A stretch of DNA of 51,885 nucleotides, taken from IMG/VR virus record IMGVR_UViG_3300035674_000005, positions 1-51,885 of that record; one strand, 5' to 3'. Positions 3,603 through 51,885 of the stretch are shown one piece after another; the first letter of the stretch is position 1; each line of letters begins with the position of its first letter. The translations under genes and the position numbers were made by a program. The notes beneath the pieces were generated by a model, which was not told the origin of the DNA, made no database searches, and saw only the letters and a program-made list of their open reading frames with translations. The stretch is from a virus.

Positions 3603-3872
3603 TTAGACCCAATCGCCCACTCTGTCGAACTCTAACGGTAAGCAGAAGATTTCAAAACCGGGATCATCGATGTGGTGCTTGACTTCGTGTAGTTGTTCTA
3701 AGCCGATTTTCCAGAAGTCGTGGTCGCTGTCTAACCATACTATGTGCCAGGTGCCTTCTAGCCTCATCCAGTAGTAGCCTTCTTCGAGCTGTTTCCAATC
3801 GCCATCGTAACGAGCAATGATCTTCTGTGTTTGTGTGTTCCAATAGTAGTCAAGATTTTCTACGGGGTTCAT
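3603..3872 (-). CDS. Small tryptophan-rich protein of unknown function (89 aa)
   Basis: Rich in tryptophan, tyrosine and acidic residues (DYYWNTQ, EEGYYWMRLEG). Its ATG overlaps the polymerase stop as ATGA (3869-3872), so it should be translated by coupling from the polymerase gene. No domain recognised. A polymerase accessory role is possible from this tight linkage, but nothing in the sequence proves it. Confidence 0.75.
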   Translation of the reverse strand: MNPVENLDYYWNTQTQKIIARYDGDWKQLEEGYYWMRLEGTWHIVWLDSDHDFWKIGLEQLHEVKHHIDDPGFEIFCLPLEFDRVGDWV

Positions 3873-6391
3873 ACTAAGTCCTGTGGTGAGATTGATTTTC
3901 CGTCCGTGGGAAAGCCGTTTGGATTGCTCGGTGTGACCATCCTATCACTAATTTCCTTTCTGTAGCGGCTGTCGATCTCAACGCTGCTGAACCAGGCTAT
4001 TGATTGGGGCATGGTAGAGAATCCTAGGGCAGCGTAACAGTAGGCGCGGGTTTTGATGTGGGCTTCTTGTAGGGCTCGGGCAAAGCGATGGGTGTCTCGA
4101 TTGGCAACCAAGAACTTGACCTCGTCGTGGTAGGTAAGTAGGAGCTGATAGGACAGGCTCTCGCGCTGGCAGATCAGGTCGAGTGCCGTGAGCAGGACAT
4201 GTAGGACATCGACACCGCTTGTTTGGATAGTCCAGTTGGCACGGGTCGTTAGGTAGTCGTTACGAGTATGGGCGTTGTCGAGGCTGTCGGGAATCTTCCA
4301 GCCTAGGATGGGGGAACGAGCACCGTGTTCTGATGCTAGGCGTACCATGGCGTTAAAGACTGCTGATGCTGATCCGCCGTCGAAGTAGCCGTTTATCTTG
4401 CTGCCTTTGAGGGACTTGAGGTAAGTCTGTGCGATGCCTTTGCTGTCCGAAATGTTGCGACCGGATGCGAGGTGGATCATCGTGGCTAGTTTGTCCTCTC
4501 CGCATAGGTAGGCAGAGGCAAAGTTGCAGTTCTTGGCTAGGTCGCGTTTCATGCCGTTTCGGGTTGCCATCAAGGAGTGAGTGTCGGTACCTCGGCTCTT
4601 GTCGCCCACTAAGATGGCTCGGCTGTATTCACAGGCTCCCAGCATCTCCCGGCTTTGGTCGGCAAGCATCGAGGCTAGCCACAGCTCTTCTTGGTCGAAG
4701 TCGGCTCCTACGATGCTGTATCCGGGTGGGGATTTTACCATGCCGCGAAACTCCGAGCCTATCTTGGTCGTGGTGGTCTTGGGGCATACGAGCCAGGTGC
4801 TGTCCTTAGCCCGTCGCGATTGGGTACCCATAACGACCGTCTGGGGGACACACATCAAGACACCGCGACGCTTGACTATGCGTAGGTCTTGACAGCGACC
4901 AGAGAAAGCCTTCCAATTGGTCAGGCTGTATAGCTCTTCGTATAGCTGCGTCAAGTCTAGGGCGGGGATGGTGGTCGTTAGTCGCCCTGTCTTGACGTAG
5001 CTTAGGTAGGTCTGTGCTTTGTCGCAGGTCAAGGGGGTCGACAGGTTCTTCTCTTCGCCCTCTGGATGTGGTAGCGGGATTCCCGAGCGCGTGTACCAGG
5101 TGGTGTCTCGCCACTCGATGTCCTCGCCGTCCCACTGTAGACCCAGTAGGATTGGGGTCAGGCGCTTGCTCATCGTAGCACCGTCGCCCTTAACGTAGTC
5201 GACGTACCACTCGGGCTTTCCTTTGTTCTTGCCACTGCTGAGCTTTCTCCAGGACAGCCGATCGTCTCCGTCCTCGCTATACATCTTGTCTAGGGCGAGG
5301 TTTTCTAGCATCAGACGGTGCTTGGTGATCAGGGTATGATACTGAGTCTCGCAGCGGGACAGGTAGCCGAACCAATCGGGATCGAGGGTGATTAGGGGGT
5401 TAGACATGTGGAGCTGTCCGAGCCAAGATATCGGGGAGCCTACGTAGCGCCGTCGTAGCTGGTGGAACATCTCTAGCATGCAACGTAGGGTTGCGATCAC
5501 GTCTTGGGCACAGTAGGATAGGATGCGATCGATAGCCGGTTGCCATGTGTCCCAGGTAAGCTTCATGATGTCGTCGCGTACGCCTTTCTCTAGGGGCTCG
5601 TTGAACAGGCGCTGATGGATGGCTGCGAGAGAGACTGGGCTGGCGTGCTTGACCCAAAGCGGTGGAAACGGCTTCTTGGATAGCATTTTGTAGGCTGCGA
5701 GTTGTTGGTCGCTGATTCCCCACATTGCAGTCGCCCAGCTCATGCCGTCGAGGAATTGGTTGCCGGACGGACAGACTGTTGCCCCGTCCCAGCGCAGGAA
5801 CTCGGACGCGAGATATTGTCGGTCGTATGAGACGTTCCAGCCTAAGACGACCCGATTGCTAGGGAATGGGATCAGGTCTTCGTTGCTGACCCGTGCCTGC
5901 CAGTCGCGCACCCAGGCAAAGAGGGAGTCGTCGCCCATCGCAACGGCACAGATTGGAGTCCAGTGCTCGCTGTACTTGACCGCCTCTGTGTCTAGGAGCA
6001 TCACATCGGGGAGCTCGTCGGGGCTAATAGGGTACCAGCTCCCCGCCCAGATGTGCCACTTACCCGCGATTAAAGGGGCTCTGGAGGGTGCTTGGGGGAT
6101 AGCTGGTGGAGATAGACACTCTAGGATCTTGGGCTCCTTCTTGCCCCACGTATCTGCCGCTGCTGAGTCGAGCCACTCTTTGACCGGGGTGGGATTGCCG
6201 TCTACGTAGCTGTCGTAGGGTAGATCTATGGGCACCCACTCGCTGGGGTCTTCGATGCCGTAGTCTTTGGGGTTTAGCTCGTCCGGGTTGGGCTCTCGTC
6301 CGAATAGGGCTCTGGATATCTCGGTTGGCAATATCTTCATATATAAGTGTGTTTGGGTGCCGGGCTTGGTGGTGGTGCCGGATAAAGACAC
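3869..6391 (-). CDS. Family A DNA polymerase resembling mitochondrial Pol gamma
   Basis: Replicative polymerase with an active 3'-5' proofreading domain. Exo I is LLDTEAV (D134, E136), Exo II VVLGWNVSYDRQ (181-192) and Exo III YCAQDVIAT (293-301). Polymerase motif A is VGADFDQEEL (D564), motif B RDLAKNCNFASAY (R616, K620, F624, Y628) and motif C YHDEV (D756). The wording of these blocks matches metazoan and fungal Pol gamma far better than E. coli Pol I or T7: compare YCAQDV in Exo III, SPPGYSIVGAD before motif A, KSRGTDTHS after it, WTIQTSGVD before motif C, and MPQSIAWFSSVEID with TPSNPNG at the C-terminus. The region between Exo III and motif A is about 267 residues, shorter than in human Pol gamma. 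I use the GTG at 6391. An internal ATG at 6340 (MKILPTEIS) is an alternative. Confidence 0.95.
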   Translation of the reverse strand: MSLSGTTTKPGTQTHLYMKILPTEISRALFGREPNPDELNPKDYGIEDPSEWVPIDLPYDSYVDGNPTPVKEWLDSAAADTWGKKEPKILECLSPPAIPQAPSRAPLIAGKWHIWAGSWYPISPDELPDVMLLDTEAVKYSEHWTPICAVAMGDDSLFAWVRDWQARVSNEDLIPFPSNRVVLGWNVSYDRQYLASEFLRWDGATVCPSGNQFLDGMSWATAMWGISDQQLAAYKMLSKKPFPPLWVKHASPVSLAAIHQRLFNEPLEKGVRDDIMKLTWDTWQPAIDRILSYCAQDVIATLRCMLEMFHQLRRRYVGSPISWLGQLHMSNPLITLDPDWFGYLSRCETQYHTLITKHRLMLENLALDKMYSEDGDDRLSWRKLSSGKNKGKPEWYVDYVKGDGATMSKRLTPILLGLQWDGEDIEWRDTTWYTRSGIPLPHPEGEEKNLSTPLTCDKAQTYLSYVKTGRLTTTIPALDLTQLYEELYSLTNWKAFSGRCQDLRIVKRRGVLMCVPQTVVMGTQSRRAKDSTWLVCPKTTTTKIGSEFRGMVKSPPGYSIVGADFDQEELWLASMLADQSREMLGACEYSRAILVGDKSRGTDTHSLMATRNGMKRDLAKNCNFASAYLCGEDKLATMIHLASGRNISDSKGIAQTYLKSLKGSKINGYFDGGSASAVFNAMVRLASEHGARSPILGWKIPDSLDNAHTRNDYLTTRANWTIQTSGVDVLHVLLTALDLICQRESLSYQLLLTYHDEVKFLVANRDTHRFARALQEAHIKTRAYCYAALGFSTMPQSIAWFSSVEIDSRYRKEISDRMVTPSNPNGFPTDGKSISPQDLV

Positions 6392-6400
6392 TCTAACATA

Positions 6401-6426
6401 AACTTATGATATTCGCGTGTTATTAT
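6401..6426 (+). promoter_or_regulatory. Divergent promoter region with operator half-site
   Basis: On the plus strand TATTCGCGTGT is followed directly by TATTAT, the same GCGTGT-then-minus-10 geometry as in the promoters at 13489-13514 and 15075-15100. The left half of the palindrome is degenerate here. The site lies between the start of the minus-strand polymerase gene and the plus-strand ribbon-helix-helix gene, so it could control both. Confidence 0.55.
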
Positions 6427-6466
6427 GCTACGATGAAAAAGACGAGCGAGACAGGTTAGGATGGTT

Positions 6467-6700
6467 ATGCCAAAGAAACAGCACAGGAAATATGGCGAGC
6501 TTAAGCAGCAAAGATCTTTTATGCTGACACCGACAGCGTTAGAGATGCTAAGAGAGATGGCGGAGGGGCGCGATGTCAGTATTAATGAGATGCTGGAGAT
6601 ATTGATTAGGGAGGTTGTACGGAGCGGCTCGTCTTGGGCTCATATGCACGATCCGCTGCCTCTGGATCAGCTTGATCAGAGCAAGGTCGATTTGGGGTGA
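6467..6700 (+). CDS. Ribbon-helix-helix (CopG/Arc-type) DNA-binding protein
   Basis: A basic N-terminus (PKKQHRK) leads into a short beta strand and two helices: SFMLTPTALEMLREMAEG, then VSINEMLEILIREVV. This is the usual arrangement of a dimeric ribbon-helix-helix repressor. The start is set at 6467 because the AGGTTAGG ribosome site ends six bases upstream; ATG 6461 is too close to it. The gene diverges from the polymerase and has an operator half-site in its promoter, so it is the best candidate for the factor that binds the ACACGC-N8-GCGTGT sites. Autoregulation is inferred. Confidence 0.75.
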   Translation: MPKKQHRKYGELKQQRSFMLTPTALEMLREMAEGRDVSINEMLEILIREVVRSGSSWAHMHDPLPLDQLDQSKVDLG

Positions 6701-6701
6701 C

Positions 6702-6736
6702 AAAAAAGCCTGATCGAGGGGGTTCCTTTATCAGGC
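6702..6736 (-). terminator. Intrinsic terminator facing the minus direction
   Basis: GCCTGAT (6708-6714) pairs with ATCAGGC (6730-6736), and on the minus strand the stem is followed by TTTTTT (6707-6702). It would stop antisense transcription entering from the helicase region rather than plus-strand transcription from the preceding gene, which has no T run after the stem. Confidence 0.65.
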
Positions 6737-6766
6737 GTAGAGTTACTTCTCCCTATATTCTAACAG

Positions 6767-6780
6767 GTGGGAAGTAGATT
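6767..6780 (+). promoter_or_regulatory. Promoter-like element upstream of the primase-helicase
   Basis: The 14-mer GTGGGAAGTAGATT is repeated exactly on the minus strand at 48989-48976, upstream of another gene. TAGATT (6775-6780) resembles a -10 box. No good -35 is visible 17 bases upstream. The 50-base leader that follows holds nothing else I can name. Confidence 0.45.
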
Positions 6781-6838
6781 GGAGTACATGTGTGTGTTCA
6801 GATATGATTTAGTACTTGATGTTAGCGAGGGATGAGAA

Positions 6839-8806
6839 ATGGTTGTACAGACAGCGCACCATCGGGAGTGGGTTGAGGGGAGCGGGATCTCTGGGGATAT
6901 AACTGACCTTAATCTTCAGTCTATATCGGGTGGTGTGGCGAGAGAGGTTTTGGGGTGGGGTGAGTATAACGGCGATGGAGAGGATCCGCTTAAGTCGGGG
7001 TGGTGGTGTGAGAGTGTAGAGCCGGAGACTGGTAGGGTATCGGGGTTTGGTCAGTTTAAGCCGGATAAGGTCTTTAAGTTTAAGGGTAAGAAGACGGCGA
7101 AGTATCTCAGCCCCAAGAAACCGACCGAGGCGATATTCTTGCGGATGCCTAATCCTTGTTATTGGCAAGAGGTGCTTGAGGATGTGTCTATACCGCTGTT
7201 TGTGACGGAAGGGGTCAAGAAGGCGGGGGCGATACTAAGCCTCGATCGGGCTGCTGTGGCGCTGGTTGGGGTGTGGAACGGGCAACAGGCTAAGGGTCGA
7301 GAGCTGATTGATACGCTCAAGCCGTTTGCTCAACCGGGTCGAGTGGTTGTGTTTGTGTTTGATGCGGATTTGATATTAAAGACGCAGGTGAGGGATGCAC
7401 TGGACAATCTAGCCAGCCTGATGATAGGGCGCGGGTGTCCGTGCAGGATTACGACGTGGGATATACGGGAGGGGAAGGGTATTGATGATGTGCTGGTTCA
7501 TCGAGGTGCGGATAGGGTACGTGAGATACTCGATGCGGGGCTCAGCTTAGACGAGTGGCGCAAAACGGGAACGGGAGAGCTGGTTGATCCCCAGACAGCA
7601 CAGGGTAAGATTTGGAACTATGTGACGCATGGGATGGCTAATGATCTGGAGATAGATGAGTTTAGCCTGGAGTATCGGTCGAGGGGGTTGCCGCTCGTTA
7701 TTCCCGCGCTACAGGCTCGTATAGCGGAGTCGATTGGGATGGATGTGCCGAAAAGCTACCTGATTGAGACGGTGGATTATTACGCCAAGCAGCATCCGTA
7801 TAGTGATGTGCGCGAGTACTTGAAGAATTGTGCGGCGATGTATGGGCAGAGTCGAGGGTACATTCAGGCGCTGATTGATGTGATGGGATTGGTGCCGGAT
7901 ATAGAGAAGCTGTTGATGTTTAAGTGGTTGATCGCGGCGGTTGCACGGGCGATGATGCCGGGGTGCAAATTTGATAGTGTGTTGATTCAGAAGGGTCGGG
8001 AGGGGCTCGGAAAGACGAGGTTGATGCAGATATTGGCGGGGGCTAATCGCTTCACTGAGATGAGCTTGGAGTCGGGAAACAAGGATCAGCTTCAGATAGC
8101 GAAGGCGAATTGGATTATCGAGCTGGGTGAGATAGAGTCTACGTTTAGACGGTCGGACATTAGCCACCTTAAGATGTTCATTACGCAGACACAGGATGAG
8201 TTCAGGGTGCCGTATGGGAGTAGGTCGGAGAAGTTTCCGAGACACTTTCTCTTCTGTGGTAGTACGAACAGTGACACGGTGATTACGGATCCGGATGGGG
8301 TTAGGCGGTGGTGGGTCGTACAGCCAACCAAGCGCTTTGATCTGGAGTGGGTGGAGCGAAATCGGGACAGGATATGGGCGGAGGCGTATTGGTACTTTGA
8401 GAACGCGGATATAAAGCTGTATTTGACGGACGAGGAGAATGAGGCGTTCGTACAGAGTGTCAAGCCCCATAGGAAGGTTGGGAAGTTCTATGACGGGCTA
8501 GAGAAGATAATGGACAAGCTGATGAAAGGCTCGTTTAGGCTCGTGGATGTGCTAGAGACGTTTCACATCTATCCGGGTATGAAGGACTACGATCGCGACC
8601 TACTTGCCTTAGCCAGTGACCTTAAGCTATTGGGTTTCGTTGCTGAGGGTAAACAGAGGCGAATTAACGGGGTCAAAGCTAAGTGGTGGAATCATAGTAG
8701 CACTCTAATTATTGAGGCGGCTGAAGACGAGGAACCAAGCAGTCCTTTGCTCCTGCCTTATAACGGGAACCAAACCAGACCTCAACTACCGCCCCAAAAC
8801 GGCTAG
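6839..8806 (+). CDS. Primase-helicase: DUF3854 (Toprim-like) plus VirE/SF3-type ATPase
   Basis: Likely primes and unwinds at the phage origin. The N-terminal domain (about 45-240) is DUF3854 with a Toprim-like core: glutamate in FVTEGVKKAG (E124) and the metal-binding pair in VFVFDADL (D175, D177). The C-terminal domain (about 370-510) is a virulence-associated-E type ATPase. It has Walker A GREGLGKT (386-393), an acidic WIIELGEIE segment, a sensor-like LFCGSTN and an arginine-rich GVRRWWVVQP. A short winged-helix-like tail follows (about 540-640). Start at ATG 6839 with a GAGGGATGAG ribosome site. The putative origin begins directly after its stop, as in many phages where the initiator gene abuts the origin. 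Confidence 0.88.
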   Translation: MVVQTAHHREWVEGSGISGDITDLNLQSISGGVAREVLGWGEYNGDGEDPLKSGWWCESVEPETGRVSGFGQFKPDKVFKFKGKKTAKYLSPKKPTEAIFLRMPNPCYWQEVLEDVSIPLFVTEGVKKAGAILSLDRAAVALVGVWNGQQAKGRELIDTLKPFAQPGRVVVFVFDADLILKTQVRDALDNLASLMIGRGCPCRITTWDIREGKGIDDVLVHRGADRVREILDAGLSLDEWRKTGTGELVDPQTAQGKIWNYVTHGMANDLEIDEFSLEYRSRGLPLVIPALQARIAESIGMDVPKSYLIETVDYYAKQHPYSDVREYLKNCAAMYGQSRGYIQALIDVMGLVPDIEKLLMFKWLIAAVARAMMPGCKFDSVLIQKGREGLGKTRLMQILAGANRFTEMSLESGNKDQLQIAKANWIIELGEIESTFRRSDISHLKMFITQTQDEFRVPYGSRSEKFPRHFLFCGSTNSDTVITDPDGVRRWWVVQPTKRFDLEWVERNRDRIWAEAYWYFENADIKLYLTDEENEAFVQSVKPHRKVGKFYDGLEKIMDKLMKGSFRLVDVLETFHIYPGMKDYDRDLLALASDLKLLGFVAEGKQRRINGVKAKWWNHSSTLIIEAAEDEEPSSPLLLPYNGNQTRPQLPPQNG

Positions 8807-9095
8807 TGTCTACCCCCGTCTATCCTTTGTCTACCCTATTTTGTTAAAAGGGTAGGCGGGTTCAAATCCCGTTCCAGCTTGTGTTTCAGCCTTAGTGTCT
8901 ATAGTTGTCTACCCTCTTTTAACTTAAAACTAATATATAAAATACAGTAGTAATTATATATAGAAGAGTTAAAAATCTGATTTTAGGGGTGACAAGGGTG
9001 GACAGGGTAGACACCCCTCTCAAACCCGCTCTCTGTAAGGGTTCTGGAAAGGGGCACCAGACCCACTGCCGCTGACCCCCGTCTACACCCTAGAC
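8807..9095. other. Putative replication origin: iterons around an AT-rich core
   Basis: Left block: direct copies of TGTCTACCC at 8807, 8828 and 8906, with variants at 8817 (CGTCTATCC) and 8896 (TGTCTATAG), spaced 10-11 bases within each group so they face one side of the helix. A very AT-rich core runs about 8915-8984. Right block: inverted copies at 8996-9004 (GGGTGGACA) and 9005-9013 (GGGTAGACA), held in an AGGGGTG/CACCCCT stem (8985-9018). GTCTA-CACCC-TAGAC follows at 9081-9095. A 10-bp hairpin occupies 8831-8855. The location just after the primase-helicase gene supports an origin. Confidence 0.65.
8856..8880 (+). other. tRNA T-arm-like stem-loop
   Basis: GCGGG-TTCAAAT-CCCGT is a perfect T-arm shape with a seven-base loop, followed by TCCAGCTT like an acceptor strand. 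No matching 5' acceptor (AGCTGGA) or anticodon arm precedes it, so this is not a complete tRNA. It may be a remnant, an old attachment-site core or part of the origin structure. Confidence 0.3.
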
Positions 9096-9115
9096 AGTAA
9101 AGTTTTGTAAAGCAC

Positions 9116-9144
9116 TTGTCACCATGATTTCCACACGTTATAAT
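9116..9144 (+). promoter_or_regulatory. Sigma-70-type promoter
   Basis: TTGTCA (9116-9121) and a perfect TATAAT (9139-9144) are separated by exactly 17 bases. Transcription would start near 9151, which rules out the GTG at 9149 and supports the ATG at 9173 for the next gene. Confidence 0.8.
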
Positions 9145-9172
9145 TAAGGTGTCAATAAGGAAATATCCACAA

Positions 9173-9997
9173 ATGACGTACTCAACAATCTTTGACCATA
9201 TAGACTTTGAACAGGATGCTATTCATGCGGGTTTCAATAGAAGGAAATACCCCACTGATTACGAGCCATTTCGCAACCCAGATAGTTTCAAGGAGTTGTG
9301 TGACTCTAAGAAAGGTATCAAGCCATTTGCCTTTCTCATAAATCGGTTGCAGTTGCCTGACCATCCGGCGTACATAATGGAGCTTAGCAATAGTGAGGTC
9401 ACTAGTATTGAAGATGAGGTTTTACCCCGGCGTATCAACCTAGTTTTTAAGCAGTTTGGAGAGCGCCTGGTACGGATAAAAGAGCCTGCCAATATACCTT
9501 TGAAGCGGCGAGTCTACTTCACTGCCGACCTACCCGTATTAGACAATGCTCTCATGTTAACTGCTCAAAAAGCCCGTAGACCAACCGCCGTCTTCTCCGC
9601 TTGGCTTAAACCTCAGGCAGTGAATAAAGACCATGAGGATGGTGTAACTCCGGAGCGATTTGCTGTTTTGATGGTTAACAGTATCCTAAAAGCCATGTAT
9701 TTCTGGGATGAAGAGGTGTTGGATGGGGTGCTGAGTGGTAAGCCCTCCTATGCGGCAGAACGTGACATACTTTACGATATCTGGGTAGAGAAAAGATACA
9801 AGCATCGGTTAGAAGGCTACAGGAATGATGATTTTGACCGCTTCTTGAACGACAACTTGCGGAACCTTTTCCACCAGCACGATAGGTACATGAGAAACAA
9901 CTATCTCTTTGATGCCCTCGACCGTTTCTATAAGCTGCATGAGGAGCCTTTCTTAGAGCGTCAGAGGCAAATCGAGCAACTGGTTAGAACTTTCTAG
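9173..9997 (+). CDS. Protein of unknown function (274 aa)
   Basis: Soluble, charged and aromatic-rich protein, MTYSTIFDHIDFEQ at the start and a helical C-terminal third (FLNDNLRNLFHQHDRY). No signal peptide, membrane segment or recognisable domain. The ATG at 9173 is chosen because the strong promoter puts the RNA start near 9151, and AAGGA lies upstream. It is the first gene after the origin with its own consensus host-type promoter, so early expression is likely. A host-takeover role is possible but not shown by sequence. Confidence 0.85.
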   Translation: MTYSTIFDHIDFEQDAIHAGFNRRKYPTDYEPFRNPDSFKELCDSKKGIKPFAFLINRLQLPDHPAYIMELSNSEVTSIEDEVLPRRINLVFKQFGERLVRIKEPANIPLKRRVYFTADLPVLDNALMLTAQKARRPTAVFSAWLKPQAVNKDHEDGVTPERFAVLMVNSILKAMYFWDEEVLDGVLSGKPSYAAERDILYDIWVEKRYKHRLEGYRNDDFDRFLNDNLRNLFHQHDRYMRNNYLFDALDRFYKLHEEPFLERQRQIEQLVRTF

Positions 9998-10017
9998 ACC
10001 GCGTTAATGACATACAC

Positions 10018-10040
10018 ATGGGGGAGGTAACTAACCCCAT
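10018..10040 (+). other. Intergenic GGGG/CCCC hairpin 1
   Basis: ATGGGG pairs with CCCCAT around GAGGTAACTAA. There is no T run, so simple intrinsic termination is uncertain. Closely similar to the hairpin at 11798-11816, including the loop sequence GAGGTnACTAA. Confidence 0.6.
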
Positions 10041-10054
10041 CACAGGAGCCTACC

Positions 10055-10252
10055 ATGCTATTTTTCTACATCTCACTCGATGGTCAAGCAGCCATCAACA
10101 TCTCCCATATCGTCAGTGCCCATATGAGCTCAGCGACCCACGGCGAGGTCAAGCTCTCTAATGGGGCTACCTGCACCCTCTCAAAGAAAGAGTTTCAATC
10201 TCTGATAGGCTTGTTACAGGCTTACTCGTTTGCTAAGAAGTCCAACCTATAG
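10055..10252 (+). CDS. Small protein of unknown function (65 aa)
   Basis: Starts MLFFYISLDGQ after an AGGAG ribosome site. Alternating beta-type residues and a GEVKLSNGATCTLSKKEF segment suggest a small beta domain of the kind that ends LytTR or Hfq-like folds. I cannot assign it. It is sandwiched between a hairpin and the DUF4832 gene. Confidence 0.7.
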   Translation: MLFFYISLDGQAAINISHIVSAHMSSATHGEVKLSNGATCTLSKKEFQSLIGLLQAYSFAKKSNL

Positions 10253-10273
10253 ACCGCGACCCCAAGGATACAG

Positions 10274-11791
10274 ATGCCACAATATACGATTTGTCGATGG
10301 CTACTTCCATCAGGAGCCAAAGAGTGCCAGACAGCCACCGCCGTAGACCAAGCCGATGCGGACACCCAAGCCCGTACATATGCCATGCAACTAGTAGGCT
10401 ACTCTGCCACCCTCATCAACCCGGTCAACATGATAGTGACCGACTACGCTCCGAGTACCGACTCATTCCCTAACCCCGAGCGCGGATTCTTCTCCCCGTT
10501 CGAGCCCTCTACGACTCCCTTTACCGTCACCCAGCTAAAAGAGATTCGCACCCGCAACATCACCCTAGCGCGACGGATCTACAACATCGGGGCATATCGC
10601 AACAGCACGATCCCCCAATCATATCTCGACACAGTAAAGGGCGACTTAGATGCAGCTCGGACAGCCGGTGTCAAGCTCATCCCACGCTTTACCTACAACT
10701 GGGTCGGCGGTGGGGATGATGCACCCCTAGCTCGCACACTCGGTCACCTAGACCAACTAAAGCCCGTGTTAGCTGGCGGTGCAGATGTGATCGCTTTCAT
10801 GGAAGCGGGTATGGTTGGTTATTGGGGTCAGTGGAACCGCTCGTCCAACGGACACGTACAAGAGAACCTTGACATGACCGATAGTGGACGGCAGATATAC
10901 GACCGGATGCTAACCACCTACCCACGGCTCCGTCAAATCCTGTTGCCGTACCCCAGACAAAAGTACAGCTACCTGGCTCTCAAAGGTATCGCTAATCCCA
11001 GGAGCCCTATGCCCGTCTCAGAGGCTCACACGGGGACAGCACGTTCTCGTACAGGCTCTCATAACGACGGCTTCTTGCACGACTCGACTGACTTCGGGTA
11101 CTACACCTGGGATTACGTAGAGGGAGATAAGACCAATCTTAATGCAGAGGGTCTATACATCTTCCATGGCGGAGAGACAGCAAGCGGCAGTACCTCGTAC
11201 AGCGGCTGTACCAATGCCAAGAAAGAGCTGACTCGTATGCGCTGGACGTACATCAACAGCTTCGACAAAGGCTGGGGAGACGGACTTGGCATCCTCAATC
11301 AGTGGCGTAACGAAGGCTGCTTCCCCGAGATAGAGAGAAACCTAGGCTACAGGCTAAGGCTAGTTTCCTCTTCCATCCAAGACCGAGTTAAGCCGGGTGG
11401 ACGCTTCCAGATGTCATTCACCGTTACCAATGACGGCTACAGCAGCCTGATCAACCCTCGCCATGCCTACATCCTGCTGATCAACCGTGCTACCGGACAA
11501 CAGCGCCATCTGAGTCTAAGCAGCGAGAACATCCGCGCTTGGCATCCCGGTGTCAATCGCACCGTTAGTATAGACGTTGGCATCCCGACCAACATGGCGT
11601 TAGGCGAGTATGACGTACGGCTATTGCTACCGGACATCAACTCTGCCTTACATTCCCGTCCTGAGTATGCGGTCAGACTGGCTAATCAAAACACTTGGTT
11701 GCCGGCTAATGGTCACAACTCCATGCTACGAACCCTGATCGTGGACAGCACAAGCGGCGAGACATACAGCGGTACAGTGTACTTCCAATAA
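10274..11791 (+). CDS. DUF4874/DUF4832 glycoside-hydrolase-like protein
   Basis: The segment SFPNPERGFFSPF (about 64-76) opens a DUF4874 barrel-like domain (about 60-240), followed by DUF4832 (about 255-470) with the typical EAHTGTARS, YRLRLVSSS and FTVTNDGYSSL blocks. These two domains occur together in bacterial secreted carbohydrate-active proteins, so degradation or binding of host exopolysaccharide is likely. The first 50 residues form a separate small domain without a signal peptide, which could anchor the enzyme in the virion. Next downstream are a lyase-like protein and, further on, a GH5 enzyme. Catalytic residues cannot be assigned with certainty. Confidence 0.82.
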   Translation: MPQYTICRWLLPSGAKECQTATAVDQADADTQARTYAMQLVGYSATLINPVNMIVTDYAPSTDSFPNPERGFFSPFEPSTTPFTVTQLKEIRTRNITLARRIYNIGAYRNSTIPQSYLDTVKGDLDAARTAGVKLIPRFTYNWVGGGDDAPLARTLGHLDQLKPVLAGGADVIAFMEAGMVGYWGQWNRSSNGHVQENLDMTDSGRQIYDRMLTTYPRLRQILLPYPRQKYSYLALKGIANPRSPMPVSEAHTGTARSRTGSHNDGFLHDSTDFGYYTWDYVEGDKTNLNAEGLYIFHGGETASGSTSYSGCTNAKKELTRMRWTYINSFDKGWGDGLGILNQWRNEGCFPEIERNLGYRLRLVSSSIQDRVKPGGRFQMSFTVTNDGYSSLINPRHAYILLINRATGQQRHLSLSSENIRAWHPGVNRTVSIDVGIPTNMALGEYDVRLLLPDINSALHSRPEYAVRLANQNTWLPANGHNSMLRTLIVDSTSGETYSGTVYFQ

Positions 11792-11797
11792 TGCTGC

Positions 11798-11816
11798 GGG
11801 GGAGGTCACTAACCCC
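11798..11816 (+). other. Intergenic GGGG/CCCC hairpin 2
   Basis: GGGGG pairs with CCCC around AGGTCACTAA, directly after the DUF4832 gene. It is almost the same as hairpin 1. The remaining gap to 11882 holds no feature I can name. Confidence 0.55.
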
Positions 11817-11882
11817 TGACATACGACGAGACGGTATTTGGTAGACTTATATTGACGACTCTTTTGTGTTAGAGGACTAACG

Positions 11883-12992
11883 ATGAGTTTATTTCAGTAC
11901 CACGAACACAACACCCTTAGTGGACAATACATTGAGGACTTCGACGGCACCGTACAGATTGTCACCGGAAGTCAAGCAAGATCGGGGAATTCTTGCTACC
12001 GGATGAATCACAGTGGTCAAGGTAAGCGTGTTGAAGCGGGTTCTAATATCTACTACAACAGGGATGTCAAGTTCTTCCGTAGAAGCTTCTTTGTGCCCAT
12101 GGATTTTAGGGGTGCAAATCGGGCTAAGGGTTGGACGGTAATGCAAGTGTATAATCGTCCCGACCCTAATGCACCACAGCCTAATGGTTGGGAAGGCAAC
12201 GGACAACTACACATCAAGAACGTGACTGCTACCACGTTCGACTTTGACTATCTGGTTTTGTCTCATGATTATGGTACCAATACACCCATTCGCCACCAGA
12301 TCGAAATGGGGACGTTTCAAAAGGGGCGTTGGTATGACGTGATCATCGAGCAACCCTTGACCAACAATACCAACGGCTATTGCAAGGCGTATGTAGGAGA
12401 GAAGGGGCAAGCGCTGACCCAAAGAGGCGGCACCTACTATGGGCGTACATCTTACTTGCACGAGAGAGGATGGACAAAAGCCGGTTTATATGCCTCAGAA
12501 GATTTTGTGCAGACATACTTGTTCATTGACGAGCTCTACGTGGGCAGACACGACAGTAGCCTAGCTGAGATGCGTCCAGAGGGCGGTACAACCACGCCTC
12601 CTCCACCCCCACCCCCTGGCAACCGCATCGTCTCCATCCAGAGCCAAGATGGAAATGGCTATCTAGGGTTGGTCAATGGTGTGATCGTACGGGGTGATGC
12701 GATACTCGGTGGCGACAATGAGAAGTTTGAGCTGGTGCCATCAGGGAGCAACTACAAGATCCGTCCGCTCAGTAGTGCATCCTTCCTCAGTGTTGGTGCC
12801 GATAAGAAACTGTACGCCAATGCAACCGAGGCTAATGCTGCTACGTTCCTGATCAGCGAGGGGGCTAGCGACAGCATCAAGCATGTAGCGTCCGGGTTGT
12901 TCGTCATCTACCGCTACTCCACTGCTTCGATTGAGGCATCGGGTAGTAGTGCCAATGCTGCTAACGACTTGTACAACATTGTGACCTTGTAA
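11883..12992 (+). CDS. Polysaccharide-lyase-like jelly roll with C-terminal beta-trefoil
   Basis: Residues about 15-235 look like a lectin/lyase jelly roll. The features are an RMNHSGQGKR strand, FRRSFFVPMDF, a GRWYDVIIEQ block as seen before the sheet that binds polymer in heparin/alginate lyase-like families, and a final strand FIDELYVGRHD. A proline linker (PPPPPPP, about 240-247) joins a fascin- or ricin-like beta-trefoil (about 250-369) with GYLGLVNG and FLSVGADKKL repeats, probably for glycan binding. Together with the DUF4832 and GH5 genes it suggests attack on the host sheath or capsule. The exact lyase family and activity are uncertain. Confidence 0.75.
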   Translation: MSLFQYHEHNTLSGQYIEDFDGTVQIVTGSQARSGNSCYRMNHSGQGKRVEAGSNIYYNRDVKFFRRSFFVPMDFRGANRAKGWTVMQVYNRPDPNAPQPNGWEGNGQLHIKNVTATTFDFDYLVLSHDYGTNTPIRHQIEMGTFQKGRWYDVIIEQPLTNNTNGYCKAYVGEKGQALTQRGGTYYGRTSYLHERGWTKAGLYASEDFVQTYLFIDELYVGRHDSSLAEMRPEGGTTTPPPPPPPGNRIVSIQSQDGNGYLGLVNGVIVRGDAILGGDNEKFELVPSGSNYKIRPLSSASFLSVGADKKLYANATEANAATFLISEGASDSIKHVASGLFVIYRYSTASIEASGSSANAANDLYNIVTL

Positions 12993-16425: not shown

Positions 16426-16902
16426 ATGGCTAAACCAAAGTTTACATTCACGATGGATTTGCAACCGGCAGCCGTACCGCACCTGCTATACGGCAAGCTC
16501 AAGTTTGATGATGGATGCGGCAAAGGTGTGGTGTTCGAGGCTACATCAGGACAGCCCAGACATCAGTATCCTAAGGCTTGGTTGACTCCTCGTAAAGGAT
16601 GCTTACCGCCGACTCAGGTGATCAAGCAGCTCTATACGGTCAACACACAGGCGTTGTTTATGCCCAATACGCAGGGGGTCGGTGGCGACTTCTTTGCTAT
16701 TGCTCCGTTCTCTGTGGATCTTGGGGCGGTCAATCGGGGCGACTTTGGCATCCACCTCGATAGCAACTACCCACAATCGCCCGGTTCAGCAGGGTGCATT
16801 GTGATCAGGAACAAGCAGCACTTTCAACAGGTGCGCGACTTGATGAAGCGGCTCAACAGCCAGCGTATCAAGTCAGTCGATTTAGAAGTTATTTACGTTT
16901 AG
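16426..16902 (+). CDS. L,D-transpeptidase-like (YkuD/DUF2778-type) protein
   Basis: The catalytic signature is near the C-terminus: FGIHLDSN with the histidine (about 106-113), then GSAGCIVI with the cysteine (about 120-127), as in the HxxD...SxGC motif of YkuD and DUF2778 enzymes that make or cut peptidoglycan cross-links. No signal peptide is present. AGGAGG five bases upstream fixes the ATG at 16426. It precedes the GH5 gene and may act on host wall peptides, either during entry or lysis. Motif-level similarity only. Confidence 0.65.
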   Translation: MAKPKFTFTMDLQPAAVPHLLYGKLKFDDGCGKGVVFEATSGQPRHQYPKAWLTPRKGCLPPTQVIKQLYTVNTQALFMPNTQGVGGDFFAIAPFSVDLGAVNRGDFGIHLDSNYPQSPGSAGCIVIRNKQHFQQVRDLMKRLNSQRIKSVDLEVIYV

Positions 16903-16910
16903 GGACTAAG

Positions 16911-18398
16911 ATGGCACTTCCACAACTAACCGTTAACGTTAACTCTCTCAGAGATCCCGGCGGCAATCCTGTACGGCTGCACGGTCTTTGCCCTGAGTTT
17001 ATCAATGACGTTGGTAGCAAATACGGCTATGCGTCCATGATGCAGCGCATGGTGGATCAAAAGGCGCGTATCGTAAGGATCTTTATACGCCCGGACATCT
17101 TTGATGGTGACAGGACGGGCTATATCAACAACTACATTAAGCCCGCTGTCACTGAGGCGACCAATCGCAACCTCTATGTGATACTCGACTATCACCGGAT
17201 CGACAACCCTCGTCTAGTGGACGCTAATGTACAGGCTGCATGGCGGGCTCTTGCTCCGGTCTATAAGAATCAGCCCAATGTGATGTTCGAGCTGTTCAAT
17301 GAGCCCAGTGCGACTTGGGAGCCACATCGTACGGATCCGACGAAGAACGACTACATTAGCTTCTCGGACTTTAGGACGCGGTTTCAAAACTACATCAACA
17401 TCATCCGTAACGAGATCGGGGCTAACAACATCATCCTCGTTCCCGGTGGTTGGTACTCGCAGCACATCCTTAAGTATGAGGACGATGCCAACTTCTATAC
17501 GGGCGGCAATATCGCGGTTGTCTATCACTTCTATCCAGGCGGCTGGGATACGACTGGGACTGATGGCAATGCCAACCTCAACAAGCCGGTTGTCAGTGAG
17601 CTAGCCCGTGTTGCCAATAAGCGTGTAGTGTTCATAACCGAGTATGGCTACGATACCGTACGGACTGATGCTCACGACACCTCGTTCAATGTGCCCGATT
17701 ATCGGGATGGCAACAGCAGCAAGGGTAAGATGGCGGCTGACAAGTTAATGGAGCATCTCGGGGTCAATAGCACCTCGTACGTGGCGGCTAAGGCATCGGA
17801 AGGCTGGCGACCAGGGCTTTATGATGATGCCCTAAATTTCCGTACTGATGCGGTCAGGTTTCACGGCATCATGACTCGGGATCTGCTGGCTCGCAACTAC
17901 GATCTGTATCAACCACAAGAGACAACTACACCACCACCTCCTATGTTTATCAAGCGGATCAATTGTGCTGGGGCTGCGTACAGGACTGCAAACACCTGTA
18001 CAGAGTTCGAGGCTGATACGGGCTACATTGGTGGCTCGGCTGCGGTGCGAGGCTCGATTGGCATTGAGGCGACCAACGACCCTGAGCTGTTCCGTACAGA
18101 GCGCTATGGTGTGGATAAGTATCAGTTCCCTGTCCCTAATGGCACGTACGAAGTGGTGTTAGGGTTCTGTGAGACGTTCTCGGGTGTTACGGCGGCGGGG
18201 CAGCGGCGGTTTAACGTGGCGGTCAACAATGTCGTCAAGAACGGTATCGATCCTTATGCCCTCGCTGGTGGTCGCAACAAGGCTGTCCTTAGTACTTTCA
18301 CTGGAGTTGTCGTTACCAATGGGCTGCTTGTGATAGACTTCACACCAGTGGCACAGAGTCCGATCGTAAACTCCATTCAGATCAAGCAACTGTCCTAG
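16911..18398 (+). CDS. GH5-type endoglucanase with C-terminal malectin domain
   Basis: Residues about 1-335 form a GH5 barrel: VRLHGLCPEF near the start, LYVILDYHRID (88-98), MFELFNEP with the acid/base E131, VVYHFYPGGW, and VFITEYGYD with the nucleophile E244. These are the conserved GH5 positions. A PPPPMF linker joins a malectin-like carbohydrate-binding domain (about 345-495) with FEADTGYIGGSAAV and FPVPNGTYEVVLGFCE. No signal peptide, so it is either a virion part or released at lysis. It probably cuts beta-glucan in the host sheath. The start at 16911 follows the preceding stop by 8 bases. Confidence 0.9.
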   Translation: MALPQLTVNVNSLRDPGGNPVRLHGLCPEFINDVGSKYGYASMMQRMVDQKARIVRIFIRPDIFDGDRTGYINNYIKPAVTEATNRNLYVILDYHRIDNPRLVDANVQAAWRALAPVYKNQPNVMFELFNEPSATWEPHRTDPTKNDYISFSDFRTRFQNYINIIRNEIGANNIILVPGGWYSQHILKYEDDANFYTGGNIAVVYHFYPGGWDTTGTDGNANLNKPVVSELARVANKRVVFITEYGYDTVRTDAHDTSFNVPDYRDGNSSKGKMAADKLMEHLGVNSTSYVAAKASEGWRPGLYDDALNFRTDAVRFHGIMTRDLLARNYDLYQPQETTTPPPPMFIKRINCAGAAYRTANTCTEFEADTGYIGGSAAVRGSIGIEATNDPELFRTERYGVDKYQFPVPNGTYEVVLGFCETFSGVTAAGQRRFNVAVNNVVKNGIDPYALAGGRNKAVLSTFTGVVVTNGLLVIDFTPVAQSPIVNSIQIKQLS

Positions 18399-50747: not shown

Positions 50748-51885
50748 TCATCGCACCGGACAGCCACCCTTAGCACAATCGCTATCTACGTCCCATTCCT
50801 CTCCCGTCTCAAACGAGGCGATCAAGGCTGCGAAGTCATCTTCCTCGATCTTTCCGTGCTGGGTTTGCCACAGTAGATATTGCTTCTCTGTGATCTCCTC
50901 GTAGACCATCTGAGGATATGGTGAGAAGACAGGCAGGAACGCGATACCTACATAGAACAACCAGTTTTCTACTAGCCAGCGAGCTATCTCAGGGATCTCA
51001 GCGGGGGTGAACGTCACTGTGATGCTGGTGTTGTGCTCTGACCAAAATATCATGCTATCTCGGTAGCGATTAAGCTGGGATATCGCTGGCTCTTGGGTAC
51101 TGGCTATCTTGGCATTGCTCTTGACGGCGAACGTAAAGACCTTAGTCCGGCAAATGTCCCACTGTAGATAGGCAGACGAGTCGGGATCCTCGGGAGGCAC
51201 ATAGACACCGATGCGCTCTAGGGACTTGACCCCCTCTATGTACTTGTCTTCCTCTTCCTTGATTGGCAGCCCTTTGTCGCGTTTGTAGTTGATGGTCGCC
51301 AGCAGGTTGTCAAAATAGTCCTTGCCTTGTCCGTTCTCTGGACTGGGCTTGAACCCTAAGACAGTCAAGGCTTTGGCAACCGGATCATGCTTGCTGACCC
51401 TAATCCGGCGATAGTAGTAGGGCGCGTAGTCCCTGTGTATGCCAGCCGATACGCCAGGGAGCAGCGACATAGTACCCGATGGCTTGATACAGGTCGCTAG
51501 CTTGGCTCGGGGGATTCCCATAGCCTTGTGATAATCGTCCGCTGCTTGCCGTACGACATGGTGGCAGGTGGCTAGTAGTACGTTGTCGCTCTCGATGCCT
51601 AGTAGATCAAAGGCTGTCATCACGCCCGTTAAAGAGACTCCTAAGAGCCTGTCCTCGGACTGGACTTGGTGCCAGTTGCGATCCTTGATCTCGACGTTGG
51701 TGATACGGGAGCAGTGTCTGGTAGCGAGGATGAGTGAGTGTCGTAGCTGTATCTCGTCTAGTCGATAGCCGCCATCTACCTTATTGACATGGGCTGATAG
51801 TGGTACCTCGGCTAGGTTGCATAGTCCTCGGTCGCGCAGTAGTATCTCAGCACAGGGGTTTACGCCCTCAAAGTCCGGTCGTCGC
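50748..51885 (-). CDS. Class II ribonucleotide reductase, C-terminal part
   Basis: Continuation of the gene at 1-1221. Bases 51702-51885 repeat 1-184, so the unique C-terminal portion is 50748-51701. CIKPSGTMSLLPGVSAGIHR is the conserved phosphate- and substrate-binding stretch, and YAPYYYRRIRVSKHDP follows, as in class II enzymes. The last residues, DSDCAKGGCPVR, carry the swinging redox cysteines (C716 and C721 of the joined protein), with the same spacing as in the Lactobacillus enzyme. The stop precedes the XRE regulator by 60 bases. Confidence 0.95.
   Translation of the reverse strand, partial: RRPDFEGVNPCAEILLRDRGLCNLAEVPLSAHVNKVDGGYRLDEIQLRHSLILATRHCSRITNVEIKDRNWHQVQSEDRLLGVSLTGVMTAFDLLGIESDNVLLATCHHVVRQAADDYHKAMGIPRAKLATCIKPSGTMSLLPGVSAGIHRDYAPYYYRRIRVSKHDPVAKALTVLGFKPSPENGQGKDYFDNLLATINYKRDKGLPIKEEEDKYIEGVKSLERIGVYVPPEDPDSSAYLQWDICRTKVFTFAVKSNAKIASTQEPAISQLNRYRDSMIFWSEHNTSITVTFTPAEIPEIARWLVENWLFYVGIAFLPVFSPYPQMVYEEITEKQYLLWQTQHGKIEEDDFAALIASFETGEEWDVDSDCAKGGCPVR
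51702..51885. repeat. Terminal direct repeat, right copy
   Basis: Copy of 1-184 with T instead of C at the position equivalent to 58. See the left copy for interpretation. Confidence 0.95.

Follow-up and report, generated by a model that had tools for sequence, protein, structure and literature searches.

A probable iteron-type replication origin directly behind a DUF3854-VapE initiator gene in a cyanophage-like genome

The DNA analyzed here (the window) comprises the 51,885 bases of the virus record IMGVR_UViG_3300035674_000005. Taken as a whole, the evidence is best explained if the region 8807-9013, with its core unit at 8896-9013, is the replication origin of this phage, at which the protein encoded immediately upstream would act; we regard this as very probable. 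An origin had been proposed for this region in the initial annotation, and the proposal is now well supported but not proven, the support coming from the recurrence of opposed arrays as a class, from the layout of the Sfi21 origin and from the domains of the initiator. Comparable arrangements are found behind related genes of other phages and plasmids, which suggests that copying of the phage DNA starts here. The features discussed below are the following.

3869-6391, minus strand: family A DNA polymerase, PolG-like cyanophage type, the presumed elongating enzyme
6839-8806, plus strand: initiator of 655 aa with a DUF3854 (TOPRIM-like primase) domain, a VapE-like SF3-type helicase and a predicted C-terminal winged-helix-like domain
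8807-8836, plus strand: left outer iterons, three copies, TGTCTACCC at 8807, CGTCTATCC at 8817 and TGTCTACCC at 8828
8850-8858, minus strand: degenerate inverted copy, CGCCTACCC, with 2 mismatches, the sole opposite-pointing copy on the left
8856-8872, plus strand: tRNA T-arm-like hairpin GCGGG-TTCAAAT-CCCGT, with one of the left arrays on either side
8896-8914, plus strand: left inner iterons, two copies 10 bases apart, TGTCTATAG at 8896 and TGTCTACCC at 8906
8915-8984, no strand: AT-rich core with 84% A+T, containing TATATATAGAAGAG, the presumed melting region
8986-9013, minus strand: right iterons, three copies 10 and 9 bases apart, TGTCACCCC at 8986, TGTCCACCC at 8996 and TGTCTACCC at 9005
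9081-9095, no strand: outer right palindrome GTCTA-N5-TAGAC
9116-9144, plus strand: sigma-70-type promoter, TTGTCA-17-TATAAT, 11 of 12 positions matching, with its -35 box within the iteron-like site TTGTCACC
9173-9997, plus strand: next gene, taken to start at ATG 9173 (listed start GTG 9149)

The initial annotation had described phased TGTCTAYCC repeats in 10-11 bp steps on the left, inverted copies on the right and a core of about 70 bases with very high A+T between them, all in a gene-free gap right after an initiator-type gene, and each of these elements was recovered. The left outer copies follow one another in steps of 10 and 11 bases, and the first of them abuts the stop codon of the 655-aa DUF3854-VapE gene. 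The best 70-mer, starting at 8915, has 84.3% A+T, as compared to 70% for the best 70-mer elsewhere in the window. The gap at 8807-9148 contains no open reading frame of at least 70 aa in any frame and is the third longest such gap in the window. The inner left pair, which adjoins the core, had not been separated out before; with it the central unit becomes tighter than earlier described, comprising forward copies at 8896 and 8906, an AT spacer of about 71 bases, and reverse copies at 8986, 8996 and 9005.

It is the clustering, phasing and orientation of the copies that are non-random, the genome-wide copy number being far less striking. When the whole window was put through 100 dinucleotide shuffles, no 9-mer of any kind occurred four times within 210 bases, as one does here. 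Across the window, exact TGTCTAYCC is found 5 times versus 1.0 expected (2 of 100 shuffles reach 5), and with at most one mismatch 18 times versus 11.6 expected (6 of 100 shuffles). Cumulative GC skew, which had been put forward as a check, did not bear the origin out: near 8.9 kb it reaches no more than a local maximum, and neither a global minimum nor a global maximum falls at 8.8-9.1 kb; this is weak evidence, because the skew may simply follow gene direction.

The initiator matches PF12965 (DUF3854, 1e-32) and PF05272 (VapE-like, 4e-58) in Pfam, and it joins a primase domain of the cyanobacterial plasmid type to a VapE helicase. Its helicase is homologous to the hexameric helicase of PriRep/Rep, as indicated by a match to 7pds_A both in sequence (E 2.9e-22) and in structure. 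An AF2 model was built from 48 sequences (those of the window and of 47 locus proteins, out of 86 usable cluster representatives), with pLDDT mostly above 85 for residues 270-620 and the first 108 residues poorly modeled. The best PDB match of this model is PriRep1 with dsDNA (7PDS; Z 28.0, rmsd 4.4, 369 aligned, residues 239-628), and the next ones score far lower (NrS-1, Z 15.7; SaPI5, Z 13.7; vaccinia D5, Z 12.8). The listing text of 7PDS reads PriRep1, "Similar to D. nodosus vapE", and we presume that this protein comes from a SaPI. Residues 56-253 match the folds of DnaG and T7 primase with Z of about 11. E124, D175 and D177, which we take to fit the TOPRIM signature, are invariant in a three-member alignment, and E124 and D177 stay so once two Nostoc sequences are added. 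The modeled tail consists of helices 551-561, 568-574 and 584-597 followed by strands 600-619, and can be aligned with the tail of 7pds as far as residue 628; from this order of elements, the region at about 550-620 appears winged-helix-like and is predicted to bind dsDNA. The structural matches along the model thus place primase, helicase and a DNA-binding-type tail in one chain.

The window encodes terminase, portal, capsid and tail proteins, a PolG-like DNA polymerase, ribonucleotide reductase, ThyX and MazG. Its ends look like the assembly overlap of a closed genome: positions 1-400 and 51486-51885 carry the same ribonucleotide reductase coding segment with small differences, and a frame break occurs where they join. 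Since the window begins and ends within a single ribonucleotide reductase gene and its two ends share the repeated stretch, the genome is probably complete, either circularly closed or permuted. The polymerase matches 11 phage records, all of them cyanophages, at 24-30% identity, and only two cyanobacterial plasmids match the initiator over 80% of its own length; together these matches suggest a cyanobacterial host. Searches by VapE, the next gene, the polymerase and the portal found no close relative of the genome, so the actual bases of the repeat region have been seen once. Among the other genes of the window, those at 10274-12992 and 16794-18398 are carbohydrate-related (a DUF4874-DUF4832 protein, a polysaccharide lyase, and a GH5 cellulase with a malectin domain) and seem unusual for a phage. 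The window contains 138 open reading frames of at least 70 aa, most of them overlapping, and 48 distinct ones were scanned for families. Rfam and tRNA scans of the whole window gave no match.

Comparison with known systems reveals close parallels in layout. Passages of PMC7581432 describe SaPI Rep helicases that recognize iterons directly downstream of their own gene through a C-terminal domain, and passages of PMC9894130 describe SaPI origin repeats in opposite orientations, which seat two head-to-head hexamers. The window resembles SaPI origins, as portrayed there, in having short opposed iterons right behind a homologous helicase gene whose product ends in a DNA-binding-type domain. The differences are that it is a full-size phage, not a satellite, and encodes its own polymerase and terminase as well as portal, capsid and tail proteins, that its primase part is DUF3854, unlike that of SaPI Rep/PriRep, and that its iteron sequence is its own. 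In the record of Streptococcus phage Sfi21 (NC_000872), a misc_feature behind the helicase gene is annotated as "origin of replication, 302 bp non-coding region, phage inhibitory sequence"; within this DNA lie two copies of TTAGTTAC, an AT core that holds TATATATAGAGAGAG, and a further two copies in inverted orientation. As in the window, a non-coding region with repeats, AT core and inverted copies follows an SF3-type helicase gene, although the Sfi21 helicase is of the DUF5906/Pox_D5 (D5-type) kind, the Prim-Pol primase is separate and the TTAGTTAC repeats have 8 bases. The SCCmec helicase Cch2, in the part of PMC7581432 that deals with it, binds direct repeats just downstream of its own gene via a C-terminal domain, at a putative origin; unlike the window, this system is described with three AAGTG repeats and a D5-type helicase. 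By analogy, the cyanophage-like genome of the window would have an origin like those of SaPIs and Sfi21.

Other replicons share single components. The cyanobacterial plasmid Reps CyRepA1 and CyRepA2 are presented in passages of PMC10079941 as having an N-terminal, Toprim-related DUF3854, which they share with the initiator of the window, whereas their C-terminal part is described there as DEXDc, not VapE. The pSYSA paper (PMC9978351) describes an RNA locus adjacent to the gene and nowhere uses the term iteron. Phage P4 alpha, according to a portion of PMC4234260, combines primase, helicase and a winged-helix domain in one chain, with repeats at ori. The window is similar to P4 in its fused primase-helicase and origin-type short repeats. 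P4 carries a second repeat site, crr; unlike P4, the window has no second repeat region that we could see, since the best phased GTCTA score occurs only at about 8.4-9.4 kb and there are no other opposed TGTC arrays close together elsewhere in the window.

Among the titles and beginnings of abstracts found in the open-licence PMC literature, none describes a VapE iteron origin. We surveyed DNA downstream of VapE genes in loci from IMG/VR, GTDB genomes and plasmids. The 171 proteins (170 loci plus the window) formed 98 clusters at 70% identity, two of which lacked 300 bases downstream and were dropped, leaving 96; the control set, drawn from the same loci, comprised 1120 regions that follow other open frames (150 codons or longer, spurious ones included). 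In a phased-chain scan of all 136 canonical 4-mers TGTC ranked first (20/96 versus 2/480 random windows), and opposed phased TGTC arrays were found downstream of 20 of the 96 VapE clusters, in none of the 1120 control regions and in none of 480 shuffles. Phased arrays of any 6-mer with a score of 4 or more occur in 46 of the 96 clusters versus 5 of the 1120 controls, so that by this test about half of the VapE clusters are without a phased array. Most TGTC cases belong to one proteobacterial phage group with TGTCCA repeats, in which a forward left set lies at about +150 to +180 and a reverse right set at about +340 to +430; the right array is in several cases located at the apparent start of the next gene, and many members share a similar next-gene start. 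Because the TGTC loci share ancestry, the survey counts and p-values overstate independence.

Elsewhere the letters differ: nine TTGTCTTGG-type copies behind L098, AGGTTGGACA behind L110, GGTTGGGAA behind L074 and GTTGCATCA behind L132 (representing a cluster that includes L058, a Staphylococcus genome). Corynebacterium phage CL31 has an array of TTGTCC. Among eight named phage records, three pass a looser 5-mer test and two the 6-mer test. In 47 iteron strings entered by hand, TGT is present in 28 with the TGTCC group included, and outside that group in 12 of 31 versus 5.3 expected, a count reached by at least one of 2000 letter shuffles. The box CTCTATA is found in 20/96 VapE-downstream regions versus 28/1120 controls, often just before the right array (e.g. 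L104, L135, L159), and the element CAATGCAGC in 14/96 versus 4/1120. VapE-downstream DNA is AT-richer than other windows of the same locus (median rank 0.15, 96 loci), but an AT-rich core is a poor class feature, many of the 24 TGTC loci being singly unremarkable with ranks of up to 0.5.

Conservation of the repeats in relatives, another check named in the initial annotation, thus holds for the class, with Sfi21 sharing the layout, and is weak among the closest relatives. Ten distinct relatives align over about 500 residues or more (L007/L178, L008, L094, L095, L096, L175, L176, L177, L179 and L180), mostly from cyanobacterial plasmids, and opposed arrays were discerned by eye in two. L175 (35% identical), which passes the 6-mer test as well, has TTGGCCCA copies 10 bases apart in an opposed array; the Phormidium yuhuli plasmid L007, which fails that test, has GGGACAACC twice, about 60 bases of AT-rich DNA and then TGTCCTGTCGTCCC. 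No opposed arrays were seen in the downstream DNA inspected of the other eight. The arrays, being present in only two of ten, are therefore not a fixed companion of the initiator's subfamily. In the Nostoc plasmid L012, at about 130-435 bases past the VapE stop, a near-perfect inverted repeat of about 30 bases surrounds an AT-rich stretch and is followed by AACTGAT-type tandem repeats; this layout is possibly a different type of origin.

Iterons and proteins were compared for 47 loci with an iteron model, the window being entered by the looser 5-mer rule. Likeness of iterons correlates with likeness of tails after correction for the helicase (partial r 0.25, 0/500 permutations) and, less strongly, with likeness of helicases after correction for the tail (partial r 0.13, 14/500 permutations); in this 47-locus set, the iteron-tail link is absent among pairs with distant helicases. 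The correlation fits a reading of the iterons by the tail, with the qualification that the sequences compared are related.

The array could instead be an operator, whose repeats bind a repressor or the initiator and serve only to regulate the next gene and its promoter at 9116-9144, with replication starting elsewhere. That promoter is a good one with an iteron-like site in its -35 box, and it is the best of three promoter-like sites at 6300-10400, where 4.4 are expected; the ATG at 9173 is preferred over the GTG because it comes after the promoter and AAGGAA, and the gene it opens has no relative in Pfam, PHROGs or phage records. The position of the right array at the next gene's start in the proteobacterial relatives also speaks for control of transcription. 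However, most copies and the AT core lie 100-310 bases upstream of the promoter, an operator has no need for opposed arrays around an AT core, and phages of very different kinds have phased arrays behind their VapE-type genes; moreover, autoregulation can coexist with origin function. We consider a purely regulatory role improbable. Three one-mismatch DnaA-box-like sites within 45 bases around this promoter, at 9127-9171, form the window's only cluster of three and were not counted, because 54 one-mismatch sites are scattered across the window.

The resemblance of GCGGGTTCAAATCCCGTTCCAGC at 8856 to a tRNA 3' end raises the question of an attachment site, with the T-arm-like stretch as the attP core in a tRNA gene and the repeats as integrase arm sites. 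Yet the single T-arm-like match compares with 0.22 expected by chance in the window, the 23-mer core is absent, even with one mismatch allowed, from all 386 cyanobacterial genomes searched, the 25-mer is in no record of the genome contig collection, and the 48 distinct open reading frames scanned include no integrase. On these grounds we dropped this very improbable explanation; the hairpin may be due to chance or may be a hairpin of the origin. Least probable of all is a partition centromere of a phage-plasmid, an idea that draws on the occurrence of initiator relatives on cyanobacterial plasmids: no ParA or ParB family was detected among the 48 open reading frames, and the repeats lie behind the initiator, as in known origins.

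For the replication origin, we infer a series of events in which the initiator would use its C-terminal winged-helix-like domain to bind the 9-base iterons of the TGTCTACCC type. Because the two arrays, left and right, are directed towards each other, a pair of rings would form face to face; they would melt the 70-base AT core and then load on opposite strands, after which the N-terminal TOPRIM domain would prime and DNA would be extended in both directions by the PolG-like polymerase.

Of greater interest than the single origin is the wider pattern behind VapE genes. We lean, by a narrow measure, towards the view that much of the VapE/D5-type initiator family shares an origin plan readable from sequence directly behind the gene, namely opposed iterons of 8-11 bases that often have a TGT core and flank an AT stretch, in which a CTCTATA box is often present, the letters being set by the C-terminal domain and the window representing the cyanophage branch. 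The window would provide a defined origin-initiator pair for a cyanophage-like lineage without a close sequenced relative, and the pattern would allow origins to be predicted for many phages whose VapE genes often carry no annotation beyond virulence-associated or DNA primase. If the letters of the iterons are truly set by the tail, recognition would be testable between replicons, and the origin-initiator pair could serve as a replicon for cyanobacterial vectors.
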